The notes under the pieces were generated by a model. The model ran no database searches. It saw nothing but the letters and a program-made list of their open reading frames with translations, and had not been told where the DNA came from. Shown one piece after another: positions 1-60,299 of a stretch of DNA of 64,000 nucleotides. The position numbers and the translations under genes are program-made. Each line of letters opens with the position of its first letter. Within the stretch, counting starts at the first letter, position 1. The DNA is taken from contig NC_045143.1 of assembly GCF_008831285.2 (NCBI RefSeq), positions 17,941,655 through 18,005,654 on the forward strand, read 5' to 3'. Source of the DNA: Nymphaea colorata (lineage: Eukaryota > Streptophyta > Magnoliopsida > Nymphaeales > Nymphaeaceae).

Positions 1-204
1 AAATTTCAGGCTGGTCTATCAAGATCCAAAAATTTTGGATCTTGATTACAAATTTGAATTTCTTTCTCTTTGGAATAGATTTTGGCATCTTCATGCGTTG
101 GAGCATTAGTTGCTTTCCTCTTTTCAACATCAATTGCATTTCTTCTATATTTGGCTAAAGTTGGCAAGAACGTTGGATCGACAACCTTATCTTTAACATG
201 AAGT

Positions 205-395
205 TGTTGACTTTGATAGTGCATGACTATTTTGTGTTTTCCTTTGTTCTTCAGTTGCACTTGTATGATATCTATAATCATTTATTACGTACCCATTATA
301 TCGCCTTGCAACAGCCTGAGGATGTTGTGAGCGAAAAATAAGTTCCTCATTACTGCTTTCAACTGAATCTCGAACACATGTGTCATGGATTTTTT
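205..395 (-). pseudogene. CACTA (En/Spm) TNP2-type transposase, C-terminal fragment
   Basis: Read on the minus strand, about 60 codons are open and include AVARRYNGYVINDYRYHT followed shortly by TQNSHAL. This is the pattern that precedes the DUF4216 region in plant CACTA TNP2 proteins (known family pattern: a GYxxNGYRFHT-like motif, then TQNSG). To the left (1-200) the sequence departs from the A2 copy; a different minus-strand frame is open at 6-281, but I do not recognise its product. To the right the frame is broken. The same fragment is present in A2, where DUF4216 follows. It is a dead remnant, not a gene. Confidence 0.65.
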
Positions 396-1819
396 ATACA
401 CATATATAATAGTTGTTGTTAAAGTAGTGACTCATTATTAATTTATATGCAAAATTGAAATACAATTAGCATGACAAATATTTCATACGCAGTCATAAAA
501 CCATGTGGCAAACTTGTTCTTGTATAGGCACTTTATCTCACAAATAGTCTTCCTTTAGTTATTCCTCTACACAACACTTGTATGCTCTATGCAAGACAAA
601 TTTACCTAAAATTGTAACAATAATAATGACATTATACAATATGACTTTTTTTTTATATATTTTAATTACAATACTCACTGAAAATATGAAGCGCAAATAG
701 AATGGTTGAAGCTTATGAATGTGCGTACTTGTTGCAATATAGCATTATCCGTTGTAACAACTTCATAGGTTCTTACAGAATGTCACTTGTAGACGTGTCG
801 TAGTAGGTTCAACATCATCATTTTTGGGAGAAGGAACAGATGGAGGTGGTGACGTGTTCAAGAAAAGGATATCACAGTTCTAATTGAGGAATAACAAAGA
901 AAACAATAGTAGTATTGAGGAAAATTAACATAAACAACAAAATAAAAAAAAATCTTCAAGTGTCTAATTCTATGTTTGTTCTTTCCCTTCAGACAGTAGG
1001 CAATGTTCCTATATATTAGTAGCTCTCTTATCCAGCAACAGATACGGATGAACAGATAATCTCAACGTACTTTGTCAATTTGGTTAATTTTGACTTCTTT
1101 GTTTCTTTAATATTCAAATAATGCTCGATTTTAGCATCTCTTATAAGATTTAAACATGTTCTTGTAGAAGAGAGTTGCAGGTTACAAACACCCAAATTAT
1201 TAGAGCCTTAACATCTGATCAGGTTCTGCTGTAGTCAGGATGTATTGAGCTGGTGAGCAGCATCTGGTCCCTTTCAATTCGTTACTATTTTTTTATGAAA
1301 TTGGTGTTAACATTAGTTCTTTTTTAACAAAAGGATCAAATATTTGCATACTTGCAGAAGTACGAACGCCTTGCCTTTACCATCTATGGGCCATATGGGT
1401 GGCTGCCTCTAGGACAAAGATAACACGAACACTCAGCGATGGAAATATGGCCTCTTAGAGATGCCAGCTTAGGCCTCAACATGTAGAAGGACCAGTTCAG
1501 AGACGTTCAGGGAATTATCCACCAAGCCAGTGGAAAGATGATCTCATGCAGTAATTTGACGCCTCGTAAATAATTCTTAAACAGAATTAATAAAACTTCA
1601 ACAGATTCTAGATCTGCATCTGCTCGTGGTTCAATTGGTTAAAAACTTGCAATTCTATGTTACTAGTGGTTCCATTTGCTAGTAAATTATCGTATACATC
1701 TTAACACTTAGAGACTTAAGCAATATGTCACCACAGATGAAGAAATGAAGGTTGACTACCATTATCTTCTACTCTCACTTTGCATAGGTCCTGTCCTAAC
1801 CAGCCTTTTTTTGACAGTG

Positions 1820-1874
1820 ATGGCAGCTGTGAACAATTTATTAGATAGTGAAGGTGCATTGAATCAGAAAAATA
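1820..1874 (+). repeat. Dispersed 55-bp repeat R, copy 1
   Basis: A stretch beginning atggcagctgtgaac recurs nearly unchanged at 2858-2913 and at 28831-28884. The third copy is simply the A2 counterpart of this one. The 2858 copy is an independent duplicate in different surroundings. Function unknown. Confidence 0.7.
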
Positions 1875-2857
1875 CGTCGACCAGGACCTGTCAACTGGTC
1901 TCCATCTCATTGCTGCTATGCATTTTCAGTCCTGCCAATCTCTTTTTACCTGCTGCAAGCCGGTCATTCCCTCTCCCTCTCGAACCTCTCCATTCATCCA
2001 TCTGAGGCATGCTGGTAACTGGCAAGTTTTTTTTTTTTTTCTTTTGTGGAAAACGGAGTACGAATATGGTCTCTTTGCACGCCTATGAAACAAATATACA
2101 AATATAATTGCTACTTTTATAAATAGCTTTGAATTTTTTATTCGTTTCATTCTTTTTTTTTTTTTTGTTCCAAACCACTTGTTGGAAATTTTTACCCTCC
2201 ATTTTTGTTCAATTGATTCAAGCCAACTTTTATAGCACTGCATCAAAGTGGTTTTAATTGGCGACTCCTAAAATCTGATTTTGATTGGCCAAGCACTAAT
2301 TTAAGTTCTCCCTTTTTCTTGCAGCTAAGAAGATCATGTCATAAGTTGTGAGCAGCCAAAAAAAGTTTTGAGTTGTCATTTTTCAATATAATTTTCTGGT
2401 TGATAATAAGAGCAAATAAGTTTCCTCACGCTTTTATTTTTTTTTACTTACATTGTTGTTATTTTAATGGTTGTTACTTAATTTTAACATGATTTTTATA
2501 TATATTATACATTTAATGATTTTAGTCCTTTACGCTTCACTTCACCTCGGATTGCTCCACCTCATTTCACAGGCTTAGACACGTTAACAACATTGATTTT
2601 TATACTTTTTTTTTTATTCTTGTAAGGGACTCCCCTTTTACTGACCAGTTCTGATCATTATAGATTTTAGTACGCATGTGCACCTGAAGTGCATGTAATC
2701 GACTTCGGTTAAGGAGCGCAACATGGGAAGGCAGTGGTGCACGCCCTGCTCGTAACAACCTCTCCTTCTAAACATTTCAAGCTCACCGAACATGACTGCC
2801 TGGATGCATTGGAGGACCGGTCAAATAAGCAGCAGCCTATTTGCATTTGGCAAAAGG

Positions 2858-2913
2858 ATGGCAGCTGTGAACAATTTACTAGATCGTGAAAGTGCATTGA
2901 ATCAGAAAAATAA
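2858..2913 (+). repeat. Dispersed 55-bp repeat R, copy 2
   Basis: Nearly identical to 1820-1874 over about 55 bp. It lies inside the 280-bp segment that A1 has and A2 lacks, next to a hAT MITE-like sequence. No gene is supported around it. Confidence 0.65.
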
Positions 2914-2933
2914 GTGCATTTTAACGAGAGGCG

Positions 2934-3056
2934 GAGATAGGAATTTTTTTAGGGGTGGGCCAAATGATCAGTAAGTCGGGTTAAAGTCGGGTTAAGAGGA
3001 GGACGAGTTGGGCCAAACTAAAAAAATTTGATTTTCTCAATCTAATTTTTTTTTTC
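2934..3056 (+). mobile_element. Fragment of a hAT-type MITE (aggcggag family)
   Basis: The start (aggcggagataggaatt, then aggggtgggccaa) resembles the terminal part of the intact MITE at 12400-12594. No matching right end or target duplication is seen. The piece ends where A1 resumes homology with A2. Confidence 0.4.
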
Positions 3057-3600
3057 TTATCTATTGCCAGCATAGCAACACCACACCTTCTTGGCATATT
3101 CCTCCACTTCTTATTAAAGAGCAAATAGAATCTCAGGTCCACTAGGAATTTATATTGCTTTTAAGTAAACTATAATTTGGGGACGTAACTATTACGCTCT
3201 ATCTTAAATAAGCAGAAGGCTGTGATCCTCACTTTCAGTAACATGGGGTCGGTGTCGCTTGAAAAGTGTTGTAACAGAAAAAAGGGAGCAAAAGAAAAAG
3301 AAAGGCACTTATTAGAAAGCTCCAAAGCCAAAACCGACGTCTAAAACATGATGCTTAAAACTAGCTGTGTGCAACAATATCTCGACAATGAGAAGAAATT
3401 GGTAGTCAATTTTGGTAACTTCTTTTTCAAAGTATCAAAAGCTGGCACATAGATTTGTAGCGGACAAGGCTGATTGAACTGCACACCATTTTTTAGTTAG
3501 GGCAAGCAGTGGACCCAACAAATTAATGGATTCTTCCTATCTTCAAGACTCGCCGCCGTTGTTGAAACTTCCACTCGTTCTCAGCAGCTACCGCTGCCCA
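3057..3600. other. PGIP1 upstream region
   Basis: Non-coding sequence conserved at 32227-32770 upstream of PGIP2. No ORF is supported. It probably contains the PGIP promoter, but apart from a TATA-like motif near the start codon I see no certain element. Confidence 0.5.
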
Positions 3601-3607
3601 GAACTAG

Positions 3608-3614
3608 TATAAAG
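3608..3614 (+). promoter_or_regulatory. TATA-like motif of PGIP1
   Basis: Tataaag lies 48 bp upstream of the PGIP1 start codon. The matching position in PGIP2 (32781-32787) reads cataaag. The spacing would leave a very short 5' leader, so the assignment is tentative. Confidence 0.3.
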
Positions 3615-3661
3615 ATGACTCTAGTAAAGATCCAGACTCATCGATACCTTGGCCGATCGAA

Positions 3662-4657
3662 ATGTTTCCCTTCATTGAGCTCATCTTCACCTTCTTCCTC
3701 TTCCTTACACTCTCCTCCAGTACAACCGCCTACCGGTGGCGGTGCGTCCCGGAGGACCGGCAAATCCTGCAGGATATCAACAAGGAGTTGAACAACACGA
3801 TGTCGAATGCATGGTTACCGGACGAGGATTGCTGTCAGCACTATATTGGTGTTTATTGCGATTCTGACACCAGCAGGGTGAACGCGATTGCTTTTAACGG
3901 CGTACCCATTTCCCGGATTCCGCCGTCCCTTGCCCGTGTCCCCTACCTGAGACAGATCTTCATACATAAAATACCAGGCCTCACCGGCGAGATCCCGGAG
4001 TTCCTGTCCAACCTGACGGGGCTCACCTCGCTGGAAATCAGCTGGACAAACGTCACCGGTCCCATCCCCCGTTGGCTTCACCGGCTCCCTAACCTGGCCT
4101 TCCTCGTTCTCAGCTACAACCGACTCACCGGCACGATACCACCCTACCTCTTTGACTTGCCCAACTTAAACTGGCTGCGGCTTGACCGGAACCAGCTCAC
4201 CGGTTCAATACCCGAGGCATTCGGCCGGTTCAAGGGCAACTCCATTTTCCTCTCACACAACATGCTCACCGGTCCCGTGCCCAAGTCCCTCGCACACATT
4301 GACTGGAGTCAGATCGAACTGCAATGGAACCGTCTCATTGGCGACCCGTCTCCCCTGTTCAACAATCGGTCCAAAACACTATGGCAGCTCGATCTGTCCC
4401 GGAATCTGTTCGATTTCGATCTCACCGCCGTTCAGATTCCGGTGGACAAGCTGTATAGGTTCGATCTCTCGCACAACATGATACGCGGCAGCATCCCCAA
4501 GGAAATGGTGAACGCGACCAGCTTGGGGATCTTCAACGTGAGCTACAACAGGCTCTGTGGGGGGATTCCTTATGCAGGTCAACTCCTGCAATTCGACAAC
4601 ACCACCTTCTTCCACAACCGCTGCCTCTGTGGCCCTCCTCTCTCTGTGGCGTGTTAG
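3662..4657 (+). CDS. PGIP: Polygalacturonase-inhibiting protein (PGIP1), secreted LRR protein
   Basis: A single-exon gene of 331 codons, the usual PGIP size. Residues 1-23 form a hydrophobic signal peptide (ending SSSTTA). The N-terminal cap has cysteines at 28, 57, 58 and 66. About ten extracellular-type LRRs follow (LxxLxLxxNxLTGxIPxx; for example GLTGEIPEFLSNL and RLTGTIPPYLFDLPNL). The C-terminal cap reads RCLCGPPLSVAC, with cysteines at 321, 323 and 331. Family knowledge: PGIPs sit in the cell wall and inhibit fungal and insect endo-polygalacturonases. Several N-glycosylation sites are visible (NNT, NLT, NVT, NRS, NAT, NTT). The start is chosen because the signal peptide begins there. 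The gene lies in block A1; its paralogue PGIP2 in A2 is disrupted. Inhibitory activity and target are inferred only. A related LRR cell-wall protein remains possible. Confidence 0.92.
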   Translation: MFPFIELIFTFFLFLTLSSSTTAYRWRCVPEDRQILQDINKELNNTMSNAWLPDEDCCQHYIGVYCDSDTSRVNAIAFNGVPISRIPPSLARVPYLRQIFIHKIPGLTGEIPEFLSNLTGLTSLEISWTNVTGPIPRWLHRLPNLAFLVLSYNRLTGTIPPYLFDLPNLNWLRLDRNQLTGSIPEAFGRFKGNSIFLSHNMLTGPVPKSLAHIDWSQIELQWNRLIGDPSPLFNNRSKTLWQLDLSRNLFDFDLTAVQIPVDKLYRFDLSHNMIRGSIPKEMVNATSLGIFNVSYNRLCGGIPYAGQLLQFDNTTFFHNRCLCGPPLSVAC

Positions 4658-5459
4658 AAGAAGGCCCACACTCACTCTCCTAGCTCTATGCCTCTGTGCT
4701 GGCCAACTAGTTATACATATCCACTTCATTTTCTTGTTTCTTTCGCTCTTATCTGCTTTCTTTTTTCCCTCGCTTTCCACTCCTCCTCTAGGCAGCTTAC
4801 TTCTTTATCTTAAGATGCTTCTTAAGCTGCCGAAAGTAATAAGTTGAGGAGGAGTGTACTAATGAATTCTGATGAATAAGTGTAATGTCATCGACCGTAT
4901 ATTTACTTCACAGCAGGTTTCAGTAATATGATCTGAAATTAATGGTGATCCCGAAGTGGAAAGCTACTTATAAATTTCTAGTAGTCACTCTCATAAGGAT
5001 AAAGCCGCATGGGAGACTTTTGTCCTTTTGTGAAGCTCGTCTTTTCGTGCAAACTATTTGATTTGTGTGGGTTAACCAAGGGCTAGACCACCGGTTGCTC
5101 AACGGAAAATTAAGAGAGAATTAGTCCTCAAATAAACAATATCTAGAAATTTTCAAATTGCTGCCCAACTGTTGATATGTTTATTATGAATAACTGCCCA
5201 TGTTTGCAAAGCACTTCATGAATGTACTTAAGGAGATGCTAGTTTACCTGTAATAAACAAGAACATTGATTGAAAAGGAAATTTCTCAAGCCACGTATGT
5301 TCATTCCTCTCTCTCTCTCTCTTTCTCTACCTAAAAAGTCGCACGGAAATGAAAATTCCCTTGCCCTCCCATCTAGTTTCTAGCTCTTCACCTCAGCCTC
5401 CAAACTAGCTCTTCTCCTCAGCCTCCGAACTCTTCTCCACAATTTTGGCAATCTTGATG
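4658..5459. other. PGIP1 3' flank and end of block A1
   Basis: The sequence after the stop matches 39903-40604 up to about 5322. An aataag motif at 4875-4880 could serve as a polyadenylation signal, which is weak evidence. From 5322 to about 5459 nothing is recognised. Confidence 0.45.
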
Positions 5460-19138: not shown

Positions 19139-19392
19139 TCACTACCTACAATAGTTCTGACGGCGTCGTCCAGGTGCATTCCCACCACCATTGCCTTGCT
19201 TACTGCCCTCGAGCATCTCCTCATTCAGTACGTCCCTAACTCCATCCCCTCTTCCTTGGCCTCGTGCACCTCAACTACCTACGCCAACATTTCAGGTCCC
19301 ATTCCAAGTTGGATCGGCTGGGTCACCAGATTAATCATTAATAGTCCATCCTACCCTTGCTCACTAACCTGCCAAATACCATGGCTATCATT
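19139..19392 (+). pseudogene. Decayed PGIP-like LRR fragment
   Basis: The plus-strand translation contains IPTTIALLTALEHLLIQYVP, then SIPSSLAS, then NISGPIPSWIG. These align in order with PGIP1 residues around IPPSLARVPYLRQIFIHKIP, GEIPEFLSNLT and NVTGPIPRWLH, with a few codons missing. The sequence is more GC-rich than its surroundings. The left side is cut by a Copia LTR and the right side by a Tat LTR at 19393. It represents a third, older PGIP copy or a close LRR relative. Confidence 0.62.
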
Positions 19393-26640: not shown

Positions 26641-27400
26641 TTTACCTTTATTACCGACTTTGTGTTCATTCTGTCATTATGCCAGTGTAGTAGCTATAGT
26701 GCCAACTGATGTTCATGGGACATCAATTCTAATAAATTGTAGATCAACATCATATATGTTTGATTCAACCTATACTTGTGCATATAATTCAAGTACAGAC
26801 GGCATGTCATTTATGCCACTTGTTTTCTCATTTTCATCAACTCCAAGTTGTACAAGTACATCATACAAGTCCTTTGGTTTTCTCTTTAAAACAACAAGCC
26901 ATTTTTAGCTTTATTGGATTGTTGACATAAAAGACTTGTTCTGTTGTTCAACTGGGCTAGGAAAAAATAAAATGGTTCCTCTTCTATGCATGAGTATTTG
27001 GTGTTGACCAGAATAAAACTATATTCATCTATTTTAAAACCTTTACCATGACTTACAACATCATACCAATTACAATTAAAAACAACAAATTTTAAACATG
27101 GATGGTACGCAATCTCCAAAATGTTTCTGATGACACCATAGTAAATTACTTCACCAACAGTTGGTGCTCCATCTCATGCACTTGAGTAGCTTGTAGTTGT
27201 CAACTTCGATAGTGCATGACTATTTTGTGTTTGCCTTTGTTCTTCAGTTGCACTTGTATGATATCTATAATCATTTATTTATGTACCCGTTATATTGCCT
27301 TGCAACAGCCTGAGGATGTTGTTAAAGAAAAATAAGTTCCTCATTACTGTTTTCAACTGAATCTCGAACACATGCATCATGGATTTTTTATACACATATA
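26641..27400 (-). pseudogene. CACTA TNP2-type transposase, DUF4216 region
   Basis: Minus-strand reading from about 27400 down gives a YRYHT...TQNSHAL motif, then GEVIYYGVIRNILEI, LKFVVFNCNWYDV, and KGFKIDEYSFILVNTKY, then KDLYDVLVQLGVDENE. This order (YYG, phiFxCDW, VDEYGFxLVN) is the DUF4216 signature found at the C-terminus of CACTA TNP2 transposases. Frame changes and stops are present. The first part lies within block A2 and is shared with A1 (205-395). The DUF4216 part lies left of the block edge and is seen only here. Confidence 0.75.
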
Positions 27401-28830
27401 AAATAGTTGTTGTTAAATTAGTGACTCATTATTAATTTATATGCAAAATTCAAATGCAATTAGCATGACAAATATTTCATACGTGGTCATAAAACCATGT
27501 GGCAAACTTGTTCTTGTATAGGCACTTTATCTCACAAATAGTCTTCCTTTAGTTATTCCTCTACACAACACTTGTATGCTCTATGCAAGACAAATTTACC
27601 TAAAATTGTAACAATAATAATGACATTATACAATATGACTTTTTTTTTATATTTTAATTACAATACTCACTGAAAAAATGAAGCGCAAATAGAATGGTTG
27701 AAGCATATGAATGTGCGTACTTGTTGCAATATAGCATTATCCATTGTAACAACTTCATAGGTTCTTACAGAATGTCACTTGTAGACGATGCTACATATGC
27801 TTGTCGTAGTTGGTTCAACATCACCATTTTTGGAAGAAGGAACAGATGGAGTTGGTGATGTGTTCAAGAAAAGGATATCGCTGTTCTAAATGAAGAATAA
27901 CAAAGAAAACAATAGTATTGAGGAAAATTAACATAAACAGCAAAATAAAAAAAAATCTTCATGTGTCTAATTCTATGTTTGTTCTTTCTCTTCCGACAAT
28001 AGGCAATGTTCCTATATATTAGTAGCTTTCTTGTCCAGCAACAGTTACGGATGAATAGATAATCTCAACGTACTTTGTCAATTTGGTTAATGTTGACTTC
28101 TTTGTTTCTTTAATATTCAAATAATGCTCGATTTTAGCATCTCTTATAAGATTTAAACGTGTTCTTGCATAAGAGAGTTTCAGGTTACAAACACCCAAAT
28201 TATTAGAGCCTTAACATCTGATCAGGTTCTGCTGTAGTCAGGATGTATTGAGCTGGTGAGCAGCATCTGGTCCCTTTGAATTCCTTACTATTTTTTTTAT
28301 GAAATTGGTGTCAACATTAGTTCTTTTTTAACAAAAGGATCAAATATTTGCATACTTGCAGAAATACGAGCGCCTTGCATTTACCATCTATGGGCCATAT
28401 GGGAGGCTGCATCTATGAGAAAGATAACAAGAACACTCAGCGATGGAAATATGGCCTCTTAGAGATGCCAGCTTAGGCCTCAACATGTAGAAGGACCAGT
28501 TCAAAGACGTTCAGGGAATTATCCACCAAGCCAGTGGAAAGATGATCTCATCCAATCATTCAAAACCAGACTCCTGGTAAATCATTCTTAAAGAGAATTA
28601 ATAAAACTTCAACAGATTCTAGATCTGCAGCTGCTCCTGATTCAATTGGTTAAAAACTTTCAATTCTATGTTACTAGTTGTTCCATTTGCTAGTGAATTC
28701 TTGTATACATCTTAACATTAAGAGACTTACGCAATATGTCACCACAGATGAATAAATGAAGGTTGACTACCATTATCTTCTACTCTCACTTTGCATAGGT
28801 CCTGTCCTAACCAGCCCTTCTTTGAGAGTG

Positions 28831-28884
28831 ATGGCAGCTGTGAACAATTTATTAGATAGTGAAGGTGCATTGAATCAGAAAAAT
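28831..28884 (+). repeat. Dispersed 55-bp repeat R, A2 copy
   Basis: Counterpart of 1820-1874 within block A2. Confidence 0.7.
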
Positions 28885-29162
28885 ACGTCGACCAGGACCT
28901 CTCAACTGGTCTCCATCTTATTGTTCTATGCATTTTCCGTCCTGCCAATCTCTTTTTACATGCTGCAAGCCCGTCATTCCCTCTCCCTCTCGAACCTCTC
29001 CGTTCATCCATCCGAGGCTCGTGCTGGTAACTGGTCAGTTTTTTTTTTTTTTTCTTTTGTGGAAAACGGAGTATGAATGTGGTCTCTTTGCACGCCTTTG
29101 AAACAAATATACAAATATAATTGATACTTCTATAAATAGCTTTGAATTTTTTATTTGTTTCA

Positions 29163-29287
<125 letters not shown>

Positions 29288-29837
29288 GTGTGTGTGTGTG
29301 GTGGGGGGGGGGTTAAATTTCCTGCACGTCTTACGCTTCTTTTTTTTTTTGTTCCAAACCACTTGTTGGAAATTTTTACCCTCCATTTTTGTTCAACTGA
29401 TTCAAGCCAACTTTTATAGCACTGCTTCAAAGTGGTTTTGGTTGGCGACTCCTAAAATCTGATTTTGATTGGCCAAGCACTAATTTAAGTTCTCCCTTTT
29501 TCTTGGAGCTAAGAAGATCATGTTATAAGTTGGGAGCAGCCAAAAAAGTTTTGAGTTGTCATTTTTCAATATAATTTTCTGGTTGATAACAAGAGCAAAT
29601 AAGTTTCCTCACGTTTTTTCTTTTTTTACTTACATTGTTGTTATTTTAATAGCTGTTAATTAATTTTAACATGATTTTTATAGATATTATACATTTAATG
29701 ATTTTAGTCCTTTACGCTTCACTTCACCTCGGATTGCTCCACCTCATTTCATAGGCTTAGACACGTTAACAACATTGATTTTTATACTTGTTTTTTTTTT
29801 TTACTTGTAAGGGACTCACCTTTTACTAACCAGTTTG

Positions 29838-31687
29838 AGGTTGTTAGTTCAGCCTGTTACATCTTCATGCTCTGAAAGGAATTGGAGCACCTATTCACAT
29901 ATTCACAACATTAAGAGAAACAAACTTACAAGCAAGCATGCCAAAGATTTAGTCTATGTACATTCAAACCTTCGGTTACTTTCACGAAACAATAATGAAT
30001 ACATGTATCTAACTTTTTTGTATCTATGTTGTTGATTAGTCTATGTAAATTTTTTGTATCTATGTTGTTGATTACTACATAATTCTTATCTTTTTATAGC
30101 GAAGGAAGCAGTAAAAATTGGGATGTGAATGGTGAGGAATTTAACTTCGAAGGAGACGAGGATCTAGTCCATCTTAATTCGGAGTTAAATGAACCATGTG
30201 CACTACAACAGGTAGAGGTAGGGCTGCACACGAGCCGAGTCGAGCTCGAGCTCGCCCAGCTCGAAATCGAGCTCGAGCTCGAACTCAAACTTGAGTCAAG
30301 TTCCCTAACACGAGCTCGAGCTCGACTCAACTATACATAGTCGAGCTCGAGCTCAACTCGACTATACATAGTTGAGCTCGAGCTCGACTCGTTTAACTCG
30401 TTTAGTTTAGGCAAAGAAGAGAAGAACCTGTAGGACGGGAGGGCAAAAGGAGTTTACCGAAAGCGAATGAGATGCCTGAAATGGGACCAGAATAGTCCGA
30501 TCGTTAAACGTTGTAAGGTTCTGTAGAATGTAAGAAAAAGATTGACCGATTGATCGATCGATCACGAAGTGTTGAAATCACGAACAATGAGGGACGGTGA
30601 ACTCTCTCTGAAAACCTCCCTATTGCCCTCGATCTCCGAATGCTCTTCTACGAGTGAGGGCCAAGGCTGATCGAACTCTTTTCGACTTCGTTCCTCTGTC
30701 TCTCGACCTTTTAGATGCCCCCTTCACTTCCAAGCAGTGGACCTTGCGATCGAGCAGCATTGTTCCTGTGTGTCAACCCTAATGAGAGCAGAAAAAACAG
30801 AAAGAGCGAATGGAGAAGGGACGAAACGTAGTCTTACTCTGCCACCAGAGGCAAGTGGAGAATCTGGTCCAACGGAAGGATGATGGATAGGAGCTGCTGC
30901 TTGCAATTCCTAATGATGAACTGCGGCAACTCACGCCCATTCCCAACAAAAAAAGGAAAGGGAAAAAATCATTCGATGGTAGTATGGTATCTCCCATCTA
31001 AACGCTAAAAGAAACATACATTTCAAAAGGTGCCCAAAACAAAACAACGAAAATGTTAGAGAAAACGAAAGTGCAAAACTAGAAAAAACGACATATGTTA
31101 GAAAAAACGAAAATGAAAAAACAGAAAACAAGGAAGAGAGAGAGAGAACTACATGTAGGCAGGAAACTTGTCCTCTTTGCTGCAGGTAGACACGGCCTCG
31201 CCTCCTAAAACCTCTTGAAACCGTGAAGGCTGATGGCTGAAGCCTGAAGCGGAGCTGCCGGCTGCGACGAACTTAGGAGACTTTAGGGTTGCATTTGGGG
31301 GGAGAAACTTTGGAAACGAGAGATAACAAAAGGAAACTAAAAAGCGAAAAGAAAGTTTCCCGCCTGAGACGGAGCGAAAAGAAAGTGTCCCGCCTGAGAC
31401 AGCGTTTGGGAATCCGAGTTTTTCAATTAAAAAACGAATCAGTACATTTTCGAATCGAGTCGAGCTTTAACCGTTCGAGATCAATGAACTCGAACTCGGC
31501 TCGACTAAAAAAACGAGTCGACAAATAAGCTTGAGTTCGGCTCGTTTATTAAAATGGTCGGCTCGAACTCGATTTCGAGTCGAGCTTTAACGAGCCGAGC
31601 TCGAGTTGCTCGGCTCGTTGTGCAGCCCTAGGTAGAGGTGGATAAGGAGGACTTTGCTGAGGTGGAAGAGGAACAGAATTTACAATG
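29838..31687 (+). pseudogene. hAT transposase C-terminal fragment, split by another hAT element
   Basis: The first part contains SERNWSTYSHIHNIKRNKL followed by DLVYVHSNLRLLSR, the hallmark of the C-terminal dimerisation domain (Dimer_Tnp_hAT) of plant hAT transposases. An apparent intron of about 80 bp (containing a 34-bp imperfect tandem repeat) ends at 'ttttttatag' near 30100. The acidic tail then resumes (KNWDVNGEEFNFEGDEDLV) up to 30218. It is cut by the 1412-bp element 30219-31630 and continues VDKEDFAEVEEEQNL to a stop at 31687. Only the C-terminal end is present. It lies in sequence that A1 lacks, so it entered A2 as a fragment. Confidence 0.8.
30219..31630. mobile_element. Non-autonomous hAT element, 1412 bp, inside a hAT transposase
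   Basis: The ends are tagggctgcaca at 30219 and its reverse complement finishing at 31630, with about 20 bp of imperfect terminal inverted repeat in all. The flanks carry the perfect 8-bp direct repeat ggtagagg (30211-30218 and 31631-31638). Both subterminal regions hold arrays of cgagct/agctcg units, which would pair in a stem or serve as transposase sites. The middle (30420-31280) has no transposase; short ORFs there have no family. Confidence 0.92.
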
Positions 31688-32835
31688 AAATATATTAATC
31701 CGATATCTCGGTTTTTTTATGTTTCTTTTTTATGAGATTATATGTAGGAACTATGAAAGAAATATTTGATATGGTATGTAAGGATAATTTTATGTTTCCT
31801 TTATGAGATGGTAGATAAGGATAATTTTATGTTTTCTTTATGAGATGGTATGTTTTCTTTATGAGATCATATCAATATGTTTGTCTTAATGATGTGATGA
31901 TATCATTTGTTTTGTTTTTCTCAAAATTTATAATTTTTTAATTAAAAAATTAACATTATTGCATAAAAAATGCACCGTACTCGTACCATGATTTGCAAAA
32001 ACACCATACATGTACCCATTTTCTCGTACTTGTACCAGCATCTGTACTCGTACCCAGGTGACATAGCTGACCAAGAGTATTAGGCTCGCAATCCCCAAGG
32101 ATCTTCTAAGATCATTATAGATTTTGGTACACTTGTGCACCTGAAGTGCATGTAATCGACTTCGGTTAAGGGGCGTGACATGGGAAGGCAGTGGTGCACC
32201 CCCTGCTCATAACAACCTCTCCTTCTAATATCTATTGCCAACCCAGCAACACCACATCTTCTTGGCATATTTCTCCACTTCTTATTAAAGAGCAAATAGA
32301 ATCTCAGGTCCACTGGAAATTTGCATTGCTTTTGAGAAAGTCATGTTGGGGGACGTAACTATTACGCTCTCTTTTAAATAAGCAGAAGGCTGTGATCCTC
32401 ACTTTCAGTAACATGCGGTCGGTGTCGCTAGAAAAGTGTTGTAACAGAAAAGAGGGAGCAAAAGGAAAAGAAAGGCACTCATGAGAAAGCTCCAAAGCCA
32501 AAACCGACGTCAAAAACATGATGCTTAAAACTAGCTGTGTGCAACAATATCTCGACAATGAGAAGAAATTGATAAGTCAATTTTGGTAACTTCTTTTTCG
32601 AAGTATCAAAAGCTGGCAAATAGATTTGTAGCGGACAAGGCTGATTGAACTACATACCATTTTTTGGTTAGGGCAAGCAGTGGACCCAACAAATTAATGG
32701 ATTCCTCTTATCTTCAAGACTCGCCGCCGTTGTTGAAACTTCCACTCCTTTTCTCAGCAGCTACCGCTGCCCAGAACTAGCATAAAGATGACCCTGGCAA
32801 AGATCCAGACTCACTCGATCCATTGGCCGATTGAA
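31688..32835. other. hAT-derived tail, then PGIP2 upstream region
   Basis: From 31688 to about 32105 the sequence is AT-rich, with 'gtacccgt/gtactcgtacc' phrases, probably the 3' part of the hAT insertion. From 32105 it matches A1 (2655 onward) up to the PGIP2 start, except for the 280 bp missing here. The TATA-like motif of PGIP1 reads cataaag at 32781-32787. Confidence 0.55.
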
Positions 32836-33445
32836 ATGTCTTCCTTCATTGATCTCATCTTCACCTTCTTCCTCTTCCTTACACTCTCCTCCAGTACAAC
32901 CGCCTACCGATGGCGGTGCGTCCCGGAGGACCGGCAAATCCTGCAGGATATCAACAAGGAGTTGAACAACACGATGTCGAACGGATGGTTACTGGACGAG
33001 GATTGCTCTCAGCACTATATTGGTGTTTCTTGCGATTCTGACACCAGTAGGGTGAACGCGATTGGTCTTAGCGGCATACCCATTTCCCGGATTCCGCCGT
33101 CCCTTGCGCGTGTCCCCTACCTGAAACAGCTTTTCATACGGAAAATACCAGGCCTCACCGGCGAGATCCCGAAGTTCCTGTCCAACCTGACGGTGCTCAC
33201 CTGGCTGGAAATCAGCTGGACGAATGTCACCGGTCCCATCCCCCATTGGCTCCACCGGCTCCCTCAGCTGGAATCCCTCGTTCTCAACTATAACCGACTC
33301 TCTGGCACGATACCACCCTACCTCTTCGACTTGCCCAACTTAAACTGGCTGCGGCTTGACCGCAGTCAGCTCACCGGTTCAATACCCGAGGCATTCGGCC
33401 GGTTCAAGGGCAACTCCATTTTCCTCGCACACAACATGCTCACCG

Positions 33446-33913
33446 TGTTGGGATTTCTCCCCATAACGCATATACAAAACCAAACGTATATACTCTAAAC
33501 AGGATCATGCTCTTGCTAAATAATTGAAATAAACGAAACCTTAAACTGAAGCGGAAGCGTACCTGAATCCATCTGATCTGGTGCACGGGAAGATCGCAGC
33601 AGGGTCTTCCAGGGTACGTGCGGTGCGCGTGAGGACTCTCTCAGATGGGGAAGAGAAAACCCTAGAAACCAAAAGCAACTGTACGCACGACCCCAGGGAC
33701 CACTACCATTATATAATGAGGACAATTACGGATTCAACCCATCAAAGAGTCCGTAATTTCGTACTGGTATCTATACATTTCAAAATTACCCCATACCATC
33801 TAAAATGACGTAATATCCCAAAACACAATCACTTAAGCGGATATTTACGTTAAGACAGCCATAATGTCTGAAATTCCCTATGGACATATGTCGGCCCACC
33901 AAATGATCTTACA
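33446..33913 (-). repeat. Copia LTR (3' LTR of the antisense element)
   Basis: 468 bp, with about ten differences by eye from 39044-39511 (roughly 2 percent). Starts tgttggg, ends cttaca on the plus strand. Confidence 0.95.
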
Positions 33914-33927
33914 ATCTCCCACTTGAG
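33914..33927 (-). other. Polypurine tract of the Copia element
   Basis: In reverse it reads ctcaagtgggagat, directly before the 3' LTR. Confidence 0.85.
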
Positions 33928-34367
33928 CCAAATATGTCTTTATACATTCAGACATTACATAAAACCTTAGGAGCTCATAATTGCTATCTTACAAACGTCA
34001 TTTCACCAATCTCGTCCATGATCATATCAACACAGAACCAAAGCGGCTTTCGCTATATCAAAAGTTAGCTAAACCTTCAATGATCACAAATGTTAACATA
34101 ACCAATGACATAGATCTGATATGGATGTATAGCATGAGAATTACATGCAATGTGATTACAACATGTATATTCTCAACTGGTCCAACTTTAAAACCTTATG
34201 GAGATCAAAACATAAACATAGAATGGAACCAAAGAACTTTAAACTTTATTTTGCAGAAAACTGAATATGTGTCTATACATAAGAGCAAACAAAATACAAA
34301 CTCCCACTAAACCAGCACATCATCCAAGGATAACACCCTCATACGAACAACATGTTCGTGAAAGACC

Positions 34368-36997
34368 TTATGTGTTAAACCCTTGGTAAGCGGATCCGCA
34401 AATCATAGAGTTTGTCCCAATATGCTCTAAAGACACCTGACCATTCTGTATCCCCTCTTTAACAGCCCAAAAAAACTTAATGTCGATGTGTTTCGACTTT
34501 GACAAACTGTAGCTATTATAAGAGTACATGACTGCTGAATTATTATCACACAAGAACCTTAGTGGTCTTTCTATACCATACAAAATGCGCAGCCTCGTGA
34601 CAAAATTATGCAATCACAAAACCTGATTGGATGTCATTATCTTGGCACCCAGAAAAGTCAGAATCTGAATACCCAATAATCTCCCACTGGTCTGACTTTC
34701 TGTATGTAAGCATAAAATCTTATGTTTTTTTTAAGTACCTCAAAACTCTTTTGGTTGCTTTCCAATGACCCATACCAGGATCACTTAAGTATCTGTCTAA
34801 CATTCCAATGATAAAAGCAATATCCGGACGAGTACAAACCTGAGCATACATAAGATTTCCCACAACAGATGAATAGGGAATCCTTTCAATTTCCTTAGAT
34901 TCGATTTCACTTTTAGGGCACTGTTTGAGACTAAACTTGTCTTTTTTTTTTAGCAACTGGAGTATCTCCTGCTTTACAATCCTTCATGCTATATCGCTGA
35001 AGCACCTTATCAATGTAGGTCTTTTGTGATAATCCAAGAATACCCCGAGAACGATCTCGAAATATTTGGATTCCTAATACAAAAGATGCACAACCAAGAT
35101 CCTTCATGTCAAACTTTGATGACAAAAATTTCTTAGTTTCATGCAATATGCCCACATCATTACTTGTCAGCAATATATCATTGACATATAAAACCAGAAA
35201 GATAAATTTGCTCCACTGAAGTTTTGGTATACACATTCATCAACCATATTAGTTTCGAAACCAAATGAAACTATAATTTAATGAAATTTTTAATACCATT
35301 GACTGGAAAGCTTGCTTTAGTCCATATATGGACTTTCTTAGTGACATCTCTACTTAATTTTCTTGAGGTTGTTGAGTTTGTTCTTCAGTATGGAGATCGA
35401 CATCATTGCCTTCTTCTGAATAGAGTAGACTCAGGTCCCTCTTCAAAGGCAATGCTTCTAACCTGATCACCTCCCCAAACTCAATATCCTCAAAGAAATG
35501 GGCATTTCCCTTTTAAAGAAAGACTTACTGAATGGATTATAAAATTTATAACCCCTTAATGTTTGTTCATTTTCCCTTTATACATTCAGTGCAGACATTA
35601 AAGTTTACAAAATCAAGGGACTCAAGAATTCCTTTTGACATAAGTCTTTATATTCTCTTTTCAGAGATATGTCATAAGCGCCAATGTCATAACATAGCAG
35701 AATTCTCTTTGGCTAATTTTCTTTTAGTACCACTAAACATAACATGCAAGGTTTCATTATATGAAGCAACCGTATCAAGCAAATAAAGGTTATCACTACT
35801 AGACAAAGAACCAGTGGAATTCAAATTTGAATGCAGAAACTACTTAAATTTATTTCCTCCAAATGAACAATAATAACCAAATTTGTTCAGTAAGGAAATA
35901 ACAACCAAATTCTGTCTAAAAGGCGGTATTACATAAGTTTCTATCAAATTCAAATAACAACCAATCTTTAACAATAACTCAAAAAATCTGCTATGGCTTC
36001 AATCTTCGCCTTCATGTCATCGCCCTCATAGATGAATCTTTCAGCATCAATTGGCGTCCGACAATTTAGGCAGCCCTGCACGGAAACACTTATGTGAGTA
36101 GTAGCAACCGAATCTACCTACAAGTGCCTTGGTACTGAAATTAAATCAACCTCAGAACAAACCAAAGTAAGAATCGTACCTTTCTTTTCACACCATGCGT
36201 GATACTTAGTACAATCCTTCTTCATATGACCTTCATCCTTGCAAAAGAAGCAGCTTGATTTGCCTTCCTTATGCTTCTTCTGTTTCTTAATGGATGCGTG
36301 ATCAACTGCAATTTCCTTAATAGCCTTCCTTTTCTTACTTTTAGGCGTATTAGCCAAGTGAGCACTTTTCTTCTTCCACACAGTGCGAAATGAGCTCATT
36401 AAGAGTCCATTTCTCCTTCTAACAGTTATAACTAACTTTAAACTGTCCAAACTGTGGTGGAAGAGAAAGAAGAACCATATGCACTATAAAGTCTTCGGGT
36501 AACCTCAGACCTAGCGCCTGTAATTTTGAAGCAAGATGAGACATTTCCATAATGTGCTCCTGTATGTTCCCCTTACTTTTATACTTCAGCGTCACAAGTT
36601 TACTCAAAAGAGTGCTTGTTTCAGCCTTTTCATTTTTAGCAAAACGCTTTTCAATCTCTTCAAGGAACGCCTTGGCACCAGCCTTTTCAGTAATAGATCC
36701 TCGAAAATTTTCTGGGATTGATCTCTTCATGATCATTAGACACATGCGGTTTGAGCGTTCCCACCGTTCAAAGTACCGCTTATCCTCATGGGAACTTTGA
36801 TCTGTTGGATGAGGTGGGCACAACTCCCTAAATGCAAGGTCTAGATCCATACAACCCAGAACAATCATAACAGTTTCTTTCCAGTCCTTAAAATTCGAAC
36901 CATTTAACTCAGGAACAGTACTCAAATTTGCAGATATCATAGAAGCAGAACTCACTGTACAGAGAACATCAAAAATACCAAACATGGTCACAATCAA
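34368..36997 (-). pseudogene. Copia gag-pol remains (element in PGIP2)
   Basis: In element order: gag of UBN2 type at 36997-36419 (STVPELNGSNFKDWKE; FIVHMVLLSLPPQF), then a zinc knuckle CFFCKDEGHMKKDC at about 36190-36260. A pre-integrase stretch follows around 35830-35640 (SSDNLYLLDT; LWH). RT picks up again near 35340 (KSIYGLKQA), with the active-site motif LYVNDILL instead of YVDD near 35190, then GIQIFRDRSRGILGLSQ and YAQVCTRPDIAF. RNase H ends near 34400 (DNNSAVMYS; SKHIDIKFF). The integrase catalytic core is absent. Stops and frame changes occur throughout. Confidence 0.88.
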
Positions 36998-37619
36998 TAC
37001 ATGTACAAAGATGAAACAACAAATATAAATGAATTTAAATACAATTGCCTAAATCCCATCACAAGGTACCGGTGCAACGTTAATATCCAATCTTTGGATT
37101 GAAATACTAACTGCAAATGGTATTCTTGGTCAACAATGAATATAAATAATTAACCCTGTCAAACAACGAGCCTATCTTTGGATTGACTCGCTATTCACAT
37201 GGAAACCTGAAAAATTATCACATATTCATTGCCCTGTATACTTAAACCTGACCAAACAACAATCCTCCTTTGGGTTGATTATTGCCCGCTTGGATCAAGT
37301 ATACTATCATCTAATGTTCAAAACAAGCAAATTCGTACAACAGAGGTCACTTTGGTGACATAAAGTACAAACGTACTCATTTCAAACAACAGACATGGCC
37401 AAAGATCAAAATTCATAATCCAAACATTCATCTAAAGTACACCCATAATTTTAATAACATGCAAAACATGATACATGAATTAAAATTTACATACAAAATT
37501 TGTCATTCATTGAATCCAAAACCTGATGCATAAACCAAATTACCATACACGTATGCCCTACATTAAATCCAAAACCAAAATGATTCAATGAAATGGGCCC
37601 AAAAGAGTCCAAAATTTAT
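36998..37619 (-). other. Copia leader, AT-rich part
   Basis: Non-coding sequence between gag and the repeat-rich leader of the antisense Copia element. Phrases such as 'aacaacaatcctcctttggg' and 'aacaacgagcctatctttgg' recur imperfectly near 37160 and 37250. No ORF is supported. Confidence 0.5.
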
Positions 37620-38140
37620 AAACCGGTATCATAATCGTGCTTAAGAGGGTCAAGAACTACTGAATCGGCCTTAAAATGGCCTGTATCGTTCTTAAACCAT
37701 AATTAGAACACCCACATACCCCTACATAGGGCTTAACCAGTCTAAAAATTAGACGTACCAGTCAAAAATAGACTGTATCGGTTCTAAAACCCACTGGACC
37801 GGTTAAAATTGGCCCAAAAACGGTTCTAGAACTCAATGAACCGGTCTGAAAAGCCCTGAATCGGTCTAAATATCAAGTGAACCGGTCTGAAAATGCCCGA
37901 ATCTGTTTAAAAATCAACTTAATCGGTTCTGAAATGCTAGAATCGGTTCCAAAACTGAATGAACCGGTTCTGAAAAGCCCTGAATCGGTCCGAAAATGGT
38001 TCGAATCGGTTCTGAAATGAATGAACCGGTCTCAAAATGGTCCGAATCGGATCTGAAAGGTCCGAACCGGTCCCTAGAAGGTCCGAACCGGTCTGAATCG
38101 GACCGAATCGGTTCTGAATCGTATTGAACCGGTTCGAGTC
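37620..38140 (-). repeat. Degenerate 'gaaccggttctgaaa' array in the Copia leader
   Basis: The motif gaaccggt or gaatcggt followed by ctgaaa recurs about twenty times with spacing of roughly 20-30 bp, densest at 37800-38130. Many cores (accggt) are self-complementary. It lies in the untranslated leader of the element. Confidence 0.85.
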
Positions 38141-38289
38141 TTTTCCAAAAAACGGTTTTTAAAAATGAACCGATTTACATAACTTAAACTGAATGGATAC
38201 GAGTCGAGTCCGACGAGACCAGATCCGGTCCGAAAAATAACACAAACGCGTGCGGGCAAGCAGCGGCAAAAGGATTTTTTTTTTTTTTA

Positions 38290-38935
38290 AATCACGATGG
38301 ATCCGGATCGGGTCTGTCAAGACCCGACCCGGGCCGACCCGCCCGCTCGACCGCGCGAGCGGTCGCGGGCGTCGTCTCCACCGCTCGCCTGCCGAACGGC
38401 AGGCGGGCGGTGGCCTTCCACCGGCAGGCCACCCAACTCCGTGGGTGGCCGCCGGCGGGTGCCGCCAGGACGGCCGGACGTCGGCGGCGGCGATGGCGGG
38501 CCGATGCCAGCCGGAAGCCGGCAGATTCCACCGGTTTTTCTCTGTTTTGAACATCTGCCCCTTTTCTGGTTTTGGGCGGCTGAAACGGTAGCCAGAAAGC
38601 CGCCGGCAAGGGAGTGGGTGGGCATCAGTTCGTCGCACGGCGCCATCCCGCGACGGTGGACTCCCCGGCGAGGCTGGATGTGGCCACACGGAGGTGGGCG
38701 AAGCCCTTTTCTCCCGCCATCGTCCCTCGCTGCCCTTCCTTCAAAACAAAAAACGAAGGTGGGGCGCACAGAAGGCGGCCGGCCGTCGCAGCCCTCCTAC
38801 CCCGCAAGAACGCCTGACTCCAGCCGTTGCGCCCCTCCCTTCTCTCCCTTTCTCCGGTTGCAACGGAAGCCGATGGCTTCCATCGCCCACGCGATGGAGG
38901 CCGTCGCCCCCTGTCCAGTTTTTTTTTTTTTTTTT
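38290..38935 (-). other. GC-rich block in the Copia leader, bounded by a homopolymer
   Basis: A GC-rich island, visibly above its AT-rich surroundings, between the repeat array and the primer binding site. It is bordered by runs of T on the plus strand (38275-38288 and 38919-38939). Long overlapping ORFs exist in all frames, as expected from GC-rich DNA without stops, and none matches a family I know. It may be captured host sequence or a structured leader. Confidence 0.6.
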
Positions 38936-39029
38936 TTTTGAAAACTTGCAGCCCAAGAACAGGGAAGAAACCAATGAGGAGTCGCACAAAATCATTCAAA
39001 AAAATTCAACGATTTAACGAAGAACATAG

Positions 39030-39041
39030 GCTCTGATACAA
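39030..39041 (-). other. Primer binding site of the Copia element in PGIP2
   Basis: In reverse it reads ttgtatcagagc, one mismatch from the iMet-type site, and lies two bases inside the 5' LTR. Confidence 0.9.
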
Positions 39042-39043
39042 AA

Positions 39044-39511
39044 TGTTGGGATTTCTCCCCATAACGCATATACAAAACCAAACGTATATACTCTAAACAG
39101 GATCATGCTCTTGCTAAATCATTGACATGAACGAAACCTTAAACTGAAGCGGAAGCGTACCTGAATCCATCTGATCTGGTGCACGGGAAGATCGCAGCAG
39201 GGTCTTCCAGGGTACGTGCGGTGCGCGTGAGGTCTCTCTCAGATGGGGAAGAGAAAACCCTAGAAACCAAAAGCAACTGTATGCACGACCCCAGGGACCA
39301 CTACCATTATATAATGAGGACAATTACGGATTCAACCCATCAAAGAGTTCGTAATTCCGTACTGGTATCTATACATTTCAAAATTACTCCATACCATCTA
39401 AAATGACGTAATATCCCAAAACGCAATCACTTAAGCGGATATTTACGTTAAGACAGCCATAATGTCTGAAATTCCTTATGGACATATGTCGGCCCACCAA
39501 ATGATCTTACA
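39044..39511 (-). repeat. Copia LTR (5' LTR of the antisense element)
   Basis: 468 bp, partner of 33446-33913. Its promoter would fire leftward, antisense to PGIP2. Confidence 0.95.
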
Positions 39512-40604
39512 CACCAGTCAGGTGCCCAAGTCCCTCGCACACATCGACTGGAGTCAGATCGAACTGCAATGGAACCGTCTCATTGGCGACCCTTCTCCCC
39601 TGTTCAACAATCGGTCCAAAACACTATGGCAGCTCGATCTGTCCCGGAATCTGTTCGATTTCGATCTCACCGCCGTTCAGATTCCGGTGGACAAGCTGTA
39701 TAGGTTCGATCTCTCGCACAACATGGTACGCGGCAGCATCCCCAAGGAAATGGTGAACGCTACCAGCTTGGGGATCTTCAACGTGAGCTTCAACAGGCTC
39801 TGTGGGAGGATTCCTTATGCAGGTCGACTCCTGCAATTCGACAACACCACCTTCTTCCACAACCGCTGCCTCTGTGGCCCTCCTCTCTCTGTGACATGTT
39901 AGACGAAGGCCCACAATCACTCCCCTAGCTCCACGCCTCTGTGCTGGCCAACTAGTTATATATATGTCCACGTCTCTTTCTTGTTTCTTTCGTTTTTACC
40001 TGCTTTCTTTTTCCCTTGCTTTTCACTCCTCTAGGCAGCTTACTTTTTTATTTTAAGATGCTTCTTAAGCTGCCAATCGTCCTTTAGAGTTTGCCTATTG
40101 TATCAAGTAATAAGTTGATGATGAGTGTACTAATGAATTTTGATGAATAAATGTAATGTCATCGACCGTATATTTACCTCACATAAGGTTTCAGTAATAT
40201 GATCTGAAATTAATTTTGATCTCGAAGTGAAAAGCTACTTATAAGTTTCTAGTAGTCACTCTCAAATGGGTCAAGCCGCATGGGAGTCTTTTGTCCTTTC
40301 GTGAAGCTCGGCTTTTCTTGCAAACTATTTGATTCGCGTGGGTTAACCAAGGGCTAGACCACCGGCTGCTCAACGGAAAATCAAGTAAATTAAGAGAGAA
40401 TAGTCCTCAGATAAACAATATATAGAAATTTTCAATTTACTGCCTAACTTTTGATATGTTTATTATGAATAACTGCTCCTGTTTGTAAAGCACTTTATGA
40501 ATGTACTTAAGGAGAGACTGTTTTACCTCTAATAAACAGGAACATTGCTTCAAAAAGTAAATTTCTCAAACCACGTATGTTCATTCCTCTCTTTCTCTCT
40601 GTGT

Positions 40605-59760: not shown

Positions 59761-60299
59761 ATAGCGAAGGACAGACCTTAGGAACAATTGATGCGAAACA
59801 TGGAGGTAGGTGAATCATCTGAGAGTGCTTATATTGTTTCAAACAATCATGCAAGTTATCAAAAAAAACCCTTATATGTTCATTTCATGAAAAACCCTAA
59901 GGGATTTCAGTTGCTTCTGAAATGTGGCTATCGTCCATTCACTGGTCTCGAGAAGAACAAAGATGACATCTTGCAGCTGATCAGTGTCCCTTTTCAAATG
60001 AACACCAGAGGATTGGGATATCATGAAGAAATTTGAAGAAGATCTTGTGGGTTGATAGTATTCATCTTTGTTTCAAATCCTCTCATGAATTTTGTAATCT
60101 TAAACTTCTTTTTGTGTGGTCTCATGGGAGGACCCCATTTCTATGAACTAAAAACTTTTCTTTTGATACGCAATGCAAGTAATCTTTTGTTGTCAATTTT
60201 AATTTCATCCAATTCTTTCTTTTATCCTCTCTTTACAGGATGTTGGAACCCAATATGTTTCAATTTCTTCTTTTTCCTCGGAAGTCCTCATAAAAAGCA

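Follow-up and report, generated by a model that had tools for sequence, protein, structure and literature searches.

A duplicated PGIP-like gene of Nymphaea colorata interrupted by a non-autonomous Copia retrotransposon

In the window, a stretch of 64,000 nucleotides of Nymphaea colorata (NC_045143.1, positions 17,941,655 to 18,005,654), the gene PGIP2 is split by a Copia element which lacks essential parts of its own enzymes. PGIP2 is very probably a locally duplicated PGIP-family gene broken by a non-autonomous element that had been moved in trans, an instance of birth-and-death evolution. Local duplication would have given rise to PGIP2, and the Copia element would then have integrated antisense in its LRR-coding region with a 5-bp target duplication, mobilised presumably by proteins supplied in trans. 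Duplicate genes are commonly lost through retrotransposon insertion, but this is a clean case of a PGIP-like gene lost in this manner which can be dated relative to the gene duplication, in which a sister gene in the same genome preserves the site as it was before insertion and in which the destructive element is itself a defective passenger.

The interrupted gene and its paralogues

The genes and their duplicated surroundings are arranged in the window as follows.

199..5320, plus strand, segmental duplication copy 1, bearing PGIP1
3662..4657, plus strand, the intact paralogue PGIP1, of 331 aa with eight cysteines
27192..40600, plus strand, segmental duplication copy 2, bearing PGIP2, enlarged by insertions
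29836..32109, no strand assigned, hAT-related insertion upstream of PGIP2 (2.27 kb)
32836..33445, plus strand, 5' part of PGIP2 (203 codons plus a further base, 610 bp in all)
33441..33445, plus strand, left copy of the target-site duplication, CACCG, the ancestral sequence shared with PGIP1 and PGIP3
39512..39516, plus strand, right copy of the target-site duplication, CACCA, with one later mutation
39517..39902, plus strand, 3' part of PGIP2 after the duplication (386 bp)

PGIP1 matched, almost end to end, the antifreeze polypeptide 6w78 (249.6 bits) and bean PGIP 1ogq (219.7 bits); scores above both came from LRR receptor kinases, which are larger and gain from their many repeats. Its N-terminal cap is more similar to bean PGIP, and a profile search found LRR matches in the PGIP proteins. 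PGIPs are characterised by a signal peptide, about ten LRRs and eight cysteines, four at each end (PMC4115169). The cysteines of PGIP1 lie at positions 28, 57, 58, 66, 299, 321, 323, and 331. Judged by homology PGIP2 would belong to the same family and have had a PGIP function, which is probably defence-related.

PGIP2 is interrupted after 610 bp and resumes with a right part of 391 bp (39512-39902). As had been predicted, the two parts less one copy of the 5-bp duplication add up to 996 bp, the length of PGIP1, and the joined frame contains neither a frameshift nor a premature stop; the element did enter a full-length reading frame. The 5' frame now continues in frame into the LTR up to a TAA at 33498. 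From its promoter PGIP2 would now yield no more than this truncated frame, 220 amino acids long, and the 3' half is severed from that promoter. PGIP1 and PGIP3 are still open frames. PGIP2 has presumably lost its function.

PGIP3 (C6:17643230), a third and uninterrupted paralogue with 97-98% identity, was found by a search of the source genome, where the three matches are three paralogues with no allelic copy among them in the single assembly. The presence/absence polymorphism within the species that had been suggested is thus far a conjecture. In a tree of 12 distinct cluster proteins, from which identical ones had been removed and which did not include 17566919 and 17603930 (two of the 15 full-length matches), PGIP2 and PGIP3 are sisters with a support of 91/82, just below the 95/80 mark of the tool. 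Neither the PGIP1 copy nor the PGIP3 copy has the 2.27-kb hAT-related insertion; a target duplication was not established for it.

Target site and timing of the insertion

At the insertion point PGIP3 reads CACCGGTCAGGTGCCC, which is the exact empty site CACCG/GTCAGG. As PGIP3 and PGIP1 both carry CACCG, the A in the right flank of PGIP2 is a later mutation, and the flanks are, as proposed from the window, a 5-bp duplication with one mismatch. While a match of at least four out of five flanking bases alone has a chance of 1.6%, the two empty sites together with the paired LTRs settle the target-site duplication. From the exact empty site in PGIP3 it follows that the element arrived after the split of PGIP2 and PGIP3.

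The original prediction had put both LTRs at 468 bp with about ten mismatches and suggested an exact alignment for dating. This alignment yielded 10 mismatches (7 transitions, 3 transversions) without any indel and a K2P of 0.0217 +/- 0.0069, and in a tree with 28 other LTRs of the family the two were mutual closest relatives (support 0.93). Compared with the noncoding K2P of 0.0521 between PGIP2 and PGIP3 (1117 sites), the insertion falls at about 0.41 (95% 0.18-0.76) of the divergence of the two genes, a rough relative date since divergence is uneven along the duplicate. It ranges from 0.03 to 0.12 by region, the downstream flank differing from the other noncoding flanks with p 3e-7. The entry had been called fairly recent; it is younger than the gene duplication. 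With substitution rates from 1.5e-9 to 1.3e-8 the LTR age would span 0.8-7.2 My, and no absolute date is claimed. That the left LTR had gained AATAAA as a sense poly(A) signal was considered and rejected: at the two positions involved it agrees with all 28 aligned family LTRs, and the signal was lost by the right LTR.

Was PGIP2 already non-functional when the element came, by C58S and other changes, so that its arrival made no difference to fitness? We regard this as possible but rather unlikely. PGIP2 has seven cysteines versus eight in PGIP1. C58S is private to PGIP2 in the alignment of the 12 distinct cluster proteins, with CC at this site also in bean PGIP and 6w78, and together with P53L and nine more amino acid changes it arose since the split from PGIP3, the insertion falling at about 0.41 of that divergence. 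Against this stands the joined frame free of frameshifts and premature stops; these changes may have come before or after the insertion. Sorted by hand, the PGIP2 branch has 11 nonsynonymous and 5 synonymous changes and the PGIP3 branch 4 and 4, an excess which is not significant (p 0.41), and the PGIP2 branch did not depart from neutrality (p 0.55). Comparison with PGIP3 identifies PGIP2 as the changed copy at codons 77-79, where bean PGIP as the sole polariser of changes proved misleading and was abandoned.

The Copia element and its relatives

The element occupies 33446-39511 (6,066 bp) on the minus strand, antisense to PGIP2 on the plus strand as had been described, and is composed of the following parts.

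33446..33913, minus strand, left LTR, the element's 3' LTR (468 bp)
33914..33924, minus strand, purine-rich tract AAGTGGGAGAT beside the 3' LTR, which we take to be a putative PPT
34931..35236, minus strand, C-terminal half of RT (matching positions 162-243 of the 244 in the RVT_2 profile)
35340 (approximate), minus strand, deletion point of ~530 bp including the RT N-terminal half, by comparison with relatives
35556 (approximate), minus strand, deletion point of 666 bp including the integrase core, by comparison with relatives
36118..36483, minus strand, zinc knuckle (CCHC) frame
36419..37048, minus strand, Copia-type gag frame (Retrotran_gag_2)
37050..39027, minus strand, long leader
39028..39043, minus strand, primer binding site TTTTGTATCAGAGCCT, presumably for tRNA-Met
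39044..39511, minus strand, right LTR, the element's 5' LTR (468 bp)

The predicted Copia class is borne out by paired LTRs with TG...CA ends, the target duplication, a Copia-type gag and an RVT_2-type RT, and in the relatives L055 and L057 integrase is seen upstream of RT. In the window element 0 of 242 integrase residues and 0 of 126 residues of the RT N-terminal half were matched. With integrase and RT incomplete it is not an autonomous Copia, and lacking the integrase core and the RT N-terminal half it is unable to move itself. Within the leader, degenerate repeats occupy 37732-38135 and a block rich in GC extends over about 38200-38930; the three ORFs tested gave no Pfam match. The absent integrase core and half RT, like the third intact paralogue and a published precedent from wheat, had been missed in the original prediction.

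Relatives were drawn from the 40 of 582 candidates that most resemble the window LTR, so that close kin are over-represented. Ten of twelve further LTR pairs picked by eye were fetched, and all ten have a perfect 5-bp target duplication. Both pol deletions are common to six of the ten, which align collinearly with the window copy over the two deletion points, whereas the ~530 bp with the RT N-terminal half are kept in L055, L057, L058, and L059, and the 666 bp with the integrase core in L055 and L057. Since relatives with the same losses and perfect duplications of their own were inserted independently elsewhere, mobilisation in trans is the probable route. That the element was complete at insertion and lost integrase and RT later is scarcely credible: deletion after insertion is common in plants, but LTRs without indel and the deletions shared at other loci speak against it and rule it out unless they were spread by conversion between copies.

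All 11 copies have either the gag domain or the RT N-terminal half, never both. The family might tentatively be viewed as a two-part system in which a Gag-keeping and an RT-keeping class complement each other, the complete ancestral lineage surviving only as older copies and the PGIP2 insertion being a product of cooperation, though we consider this improbable as it stands. Such a system would have Gag under selection in the class without integrase and half of RT, and an RT class which keeps integrase in part and has lost the gag domain. In the gag survey 106 rows were entered by hand, at least 106 matches existing, and rows of up to 41% identity were taken as other Copia families and removed. 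A partial integrase row (C3:10017303, 91%) was placed by hand in the lower group; moved to the upper group it would change the counts to 1/24 and 9/16. As 40 of 119 integrase candidates were scored, little weight can be put on a gag row with no integrase nearby. Among 11 pattern matches in a scan of viral contigs for gag there were no relatives. The reciprocal gag-bearing and RT-bearing classes merit a proper survey.

Known systems

For wheat, a PGIP gene with a Copia element inserted in it has been published, and another plant is added here. Wheat Tapgip3 is interrupted by a Copia retrotransposon, which is reported to inactivate it (Di Giovanni et al. 2008, via the review PMC4367531). An LTR Copia element in a PGIP gene is common to both cases; the plant and the element differ, and in Nymphaea the empty site can be read in an uninterrupted paralogue. 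Legume PGIP clusters are reported to have duplicated in tandem and to include one possible pseudogene, one remnant, and LTR elements in or beside pgip regions (PMC4115169), which resembles the birth-and-death pattern found here, whereas in Nymphaea the retroelement splits the coding sequence itself. Defective copies amplified with partner proteins are described for RLG_Sabrina_SA, RLC_Angela, and BARE2 of wheat and barley, Sabrina_SA retaining GAG and protease and BARE2 having a disrupted GAG with the other genes intact (PMC9744471); in contrast, one Copia family here shows both kinds of loss in separate copy classes. Many non-autonomous copies of Athila of Arabidopsis keep frames under purifying selection (PMC2410132). 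The window element shares the non-autonomous state with Athila, which is not a Copia. We take Athila to be Gypsy-type.

Possible products of the interrupted locus

To go by its sequence, the PGIP2 locus might make a truncated protein or antisense RNA, or have the element spliced out. The 5' LTR, originally named as antisense source, is not positioned for this: it lies at the right end, and its transcript would enter the element and should stop on reaching the left LTR. For antisense RNA to PGIP2 to arise, transcription would have to start in that left (3') LTR or read through it, and only the 5' half would be covered. Such transcripts could form small RNAs damping PGIP1 and PGIP3 and so make PGIP2 a regulatory locus, a very unlikely course. 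The element is antisense, a TATA-like site in the left LTR near 33715 is directed leftward into the 5' half of PGIP2, and silencing in trans is conceivable because 167 of 590 21-mers of this half are identical in PGIP1, PGIP3 being closer still to PGIP2 in sequence. LTRs of high-copy families, however, are usually silenced, and an important antisense effect is presumably absent.

Removal of the element as an intron of 6 kb, with a near-complete PGIP2 protein as the product, is most improbable: the donor CC/GTGTTG matches the consensus poorly and the protein is without one conserved cysteine. In favour of it, splicing from a GT at 33445-33446 to an AG whose last base is 39521 would give an in-frame junction of ACC and GTG at the cost of two codons, and a chickpea PGIP is annotated with an atypical intron of nearly 10 kb (PMC10278945).

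Gene conversion is a conceivable candidate for the low divergence of PGIP1 and PGIP2 in the 3' half. The 132-bp identical run there is under the 95% point of shuffles (135), the lowest 386-column divergence window has p 0.02, its place in the alignment not being given, and the longest stretch of identity, 191 bp with p 0.001, is situated upstream at 492-684.

The interrupted gene and its empty site

The window contains a segmental duplication, with copies at 199-5320 and 27192-40600 which carry one PGIP-like gene each. The features concerned are the following.

3662-4657: PGIP1, a 331-codon open frame
29836-32109: 2.27-kb hAT-related insertion upstream of PGIP2
32836-33445: PGIP2, 5' half
33446-39511 (minus strand): Copia LTR retrotransposon, left LTR 33446-33913, right LTR 39044-39511
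39512-39902: PGIP2, 3' half

PGIP2 is interrupted after 610 bp by the 6,066-bp Copia element. The original prediction that the two halves sum to 996 bp is borne out once one 5-bp duplication is removed, and the joined frame has neither frameshift nor premature stop. The expected target duplication with one mismatch was found as CACCG on the left and CACCA on the right, and the 468-bp LTRs, thought to have about ten mismatches, differ at 10 sites.

The source genome (407,766,735 bases in 783 contigs, the window being C6:17941655-18005654) was searched with both halves. The 5' half gave three matches, namely itself, PGIP1 (93%), and a locus at C6:17643230 (97%), where the match to the 3' half follows directly (98%). 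This third paralogue, PGIP3, is a single 331-codon open frame with eight cysteines, and at the insertion point it reads CACCGGTCAGGTGCCC, precisely what joining the PGIP2 flanks gives when the duplication has its left-hand form. In a tree built from 12 distinct proteins of the cluster, PGIP2 groups with PGIP3 (support 91/82, slightly below the tool's 95/80 mark) and PGIP1 falls outside.

The PGIP2 insertion is genuine, clearly resolved and of a familiar kind, a Copia insertion in wheat Tapgip3 (Di Giovanni et al. 2008, via PMC4367531) being a precedent. Among the titles listed by a literature search on PGIP and retrotransposons, with most subscription papers outside its scope, none was on a water-lily PGIP; one paper calls legume PGIP clusters birth-and-death (PMC4115169).

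Orientation, antisense transcription and splicing

Gag, zinc knuckle and part of the reverse transcriptase (RT) are read from right to left on the minus strand, the primer site TTTTGTATCAGAGCCT directly follows the right LTR and a purine tract lies ahead of the left one, so the left LTR is the 3' LTR. The element indeed sits antisense in a full-length PGIP2 frame as predicted; what had to be corrected is the placing of the 5' LTR, which had been proposed as the source of antisense RNA and lies at the right end. The PGIP2 3' half, being upstream of this LTR, would not be copied from it. The left LTR has a TATA-like site at 33715, directed into the 5' half. PGIP1 shares 167 of the 590 21-mers of the 5' half and 211 of the 371 of the 3' half. 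By direct reading, the sequence would also allow the element to be removed from the PGIP2 transcript by an in-frame splice between a GT at 33445 and an AG whose last base is 39521; the candidate donor is weak.

Order of events

Noncoding K2P distance is 0.0654 between PGIP1 and PGIP2 (3826 sites) and 0.0521 between PGIP2 and PGIP3 (1117 sites adjoining the gene), with 0.040 to 0.080 in other aligned blocks of the latter pair. As PGIP1-PGIP2 divergence is uneven along the segment, being lowest in the 3' half of the gene (0.029) and highest downstream (0.119), the clock is rough. The exact LTR alignment proposed for dating gave a K2P of 0.0217. On this rough clock the insertion falls at 0.41 of PGIP2-PGIP3 divergence (95% 0.18-0.76) and 0.33 of PGIP1-PGIP2 divergence (0.14-0.57), later than the split of PGIP2 and PGIP3.

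The PGIP1 and PGIP2 segments share identical runs of 191 bp (492-684), above chance (p 0.001), and 132 bp (4349-4480), under the 95% point (135); gene conversion is a possible origin of these runs. About 290 bp upstream of PGIP1 (2772-3057) are missing in the PGIP2 copy, and part of them is similar by eye to sequence near 28830.

The hAT-related insertion (29836-32109) has coding sequence for a hAT dimerisation region at its left end (E 7.6e-6) and is private to PGIP2: the PGIP1 segment lacks it and PGIP3 is continuous across the insertion point (16 bp between aligned blocks). Nested in it is a 1.4-kb element (30220-31629) which by eye has inverted ends AGGGCTGCACA... and is bordered by a 10-bp direct repeat AGGTAGAGGT; it looks like a non-autonomous hAT.

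State of the PGIP2 coding sequence

Since their split PGIP2 has acquired 16 private changes (hand-sorted as 11 amino-acid and 5 silent) and PGIP3 8 (4 and 4), with no significant difference in number (p 0.15) or ratio (p 0.41), and the PGIP2 ratio does not depart from neutrality (p 0.55). The change C58S removed a cysteine present in the other 11 of 12 aligned cluster proteins, in bean PGIP and in the antifreeze protein 6w78. Codons 77-79 (33064-33072) hold three adjacent amino-acid changes private to PGIP2, with no conversion donor among nine other cluster proteins aligned.

Relatives of the element and its mobilisation

The window copy was compared with ten relatives (L052-L061) taken as LTR pairs, all ten with perfect 5-bp target duplications and with LTR K2P of 0.0065 to 0.0242. 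It has the gag domain (115/115 residues) and the RT C-half, and neither integrase (0/242 residues) nor RT N-half (0/126). The same domain content was found in L052, L053, L054, L056, L060, and L061. L055 and L057 combine integrase with the RT N-half and lack the gag domain, and L058 and L059 have the RT N-half with neither integrase nor gag domain. In none of the 11 copies do gag domain and RT N-half occur together, and each copy has one of the two. The 666-bp and about 530-bp stretches that the window copy lacks correspond to the integrase core and RT (rve E 2.7e-11 in L055; RVT_2 E 1e-41 in L059). From deletions common to copies at independent sites we infer that the element was already defective before insertion and mobilised with foreign proteins. 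Its leader includes degenerate repeats at 37732-38135 and, at about 38200-38930, a stretch bounded by poly-T runs whose GC content is 60-68%; the relatives align there poorly or piecewise.

In the gag-bearing class (7 copies, 21 non-independent pairs) dN/dS is 0.32 for gag (36419-36997, minus strand) and 0.42 for the zinc-knuckle piece, whereas two RT pieces have 0.58 and 0.85; purifying selection appears to act on gag in this defective class. Values in the other class (4 copies, 6 non-independent pairs each) were 0.39-0.47 for RT pieces, 0.70 for the zinc-knuckle piece, and 0.92 for the sole integrase pair. Reciprocal complementation between the gag-bearing and RT-bearing classes is a possible, though less likely, reading.

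A genome-wide integrase survey scored 40 of 119 candidates for gag within 4 kb upstream. Among the matches listed, gag was found beside none of 23 close and 10 of 17 more distant integrase copies; these counts become 1/24 and 9/16 if a partial integrase at C3:10017303 (91%), hand-placed as distant, is placed as close. None of 71 listed gag matches of at least 83% identity adjoined a listed integrase. Gag and integrase therefore occur together in some relatives of the distant group, and such copies may be protein suppliers; the gag matches of 8 of these 10 contain stops.

Family name and gene cluster

The PGIP name of these genes is founded on homology. The best PDB match among proteins of similar length was the antifreeze polypeptide 6w78 (249.6 bits), a carrot protein, followed by bean PGIP 1ogq (219.7). 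PGIP2 belongs to a cluster at C6:17.29-17.98 Mb with, among the matches listed, 15 full-length open copies, the two PGIP2 halves, and 4 partial copies. A weak LRR-like match to PGIP1 at 19178-19315 (31% over 54 aa, E 0.004) is perhaps a decayed relic. Two more retroelements have left remains in the window, one of them a Copia element at 6580-9185 (GAG-pre-integrase, RVT_2), the other lying at 57459-63485 (RT_RNaseH).
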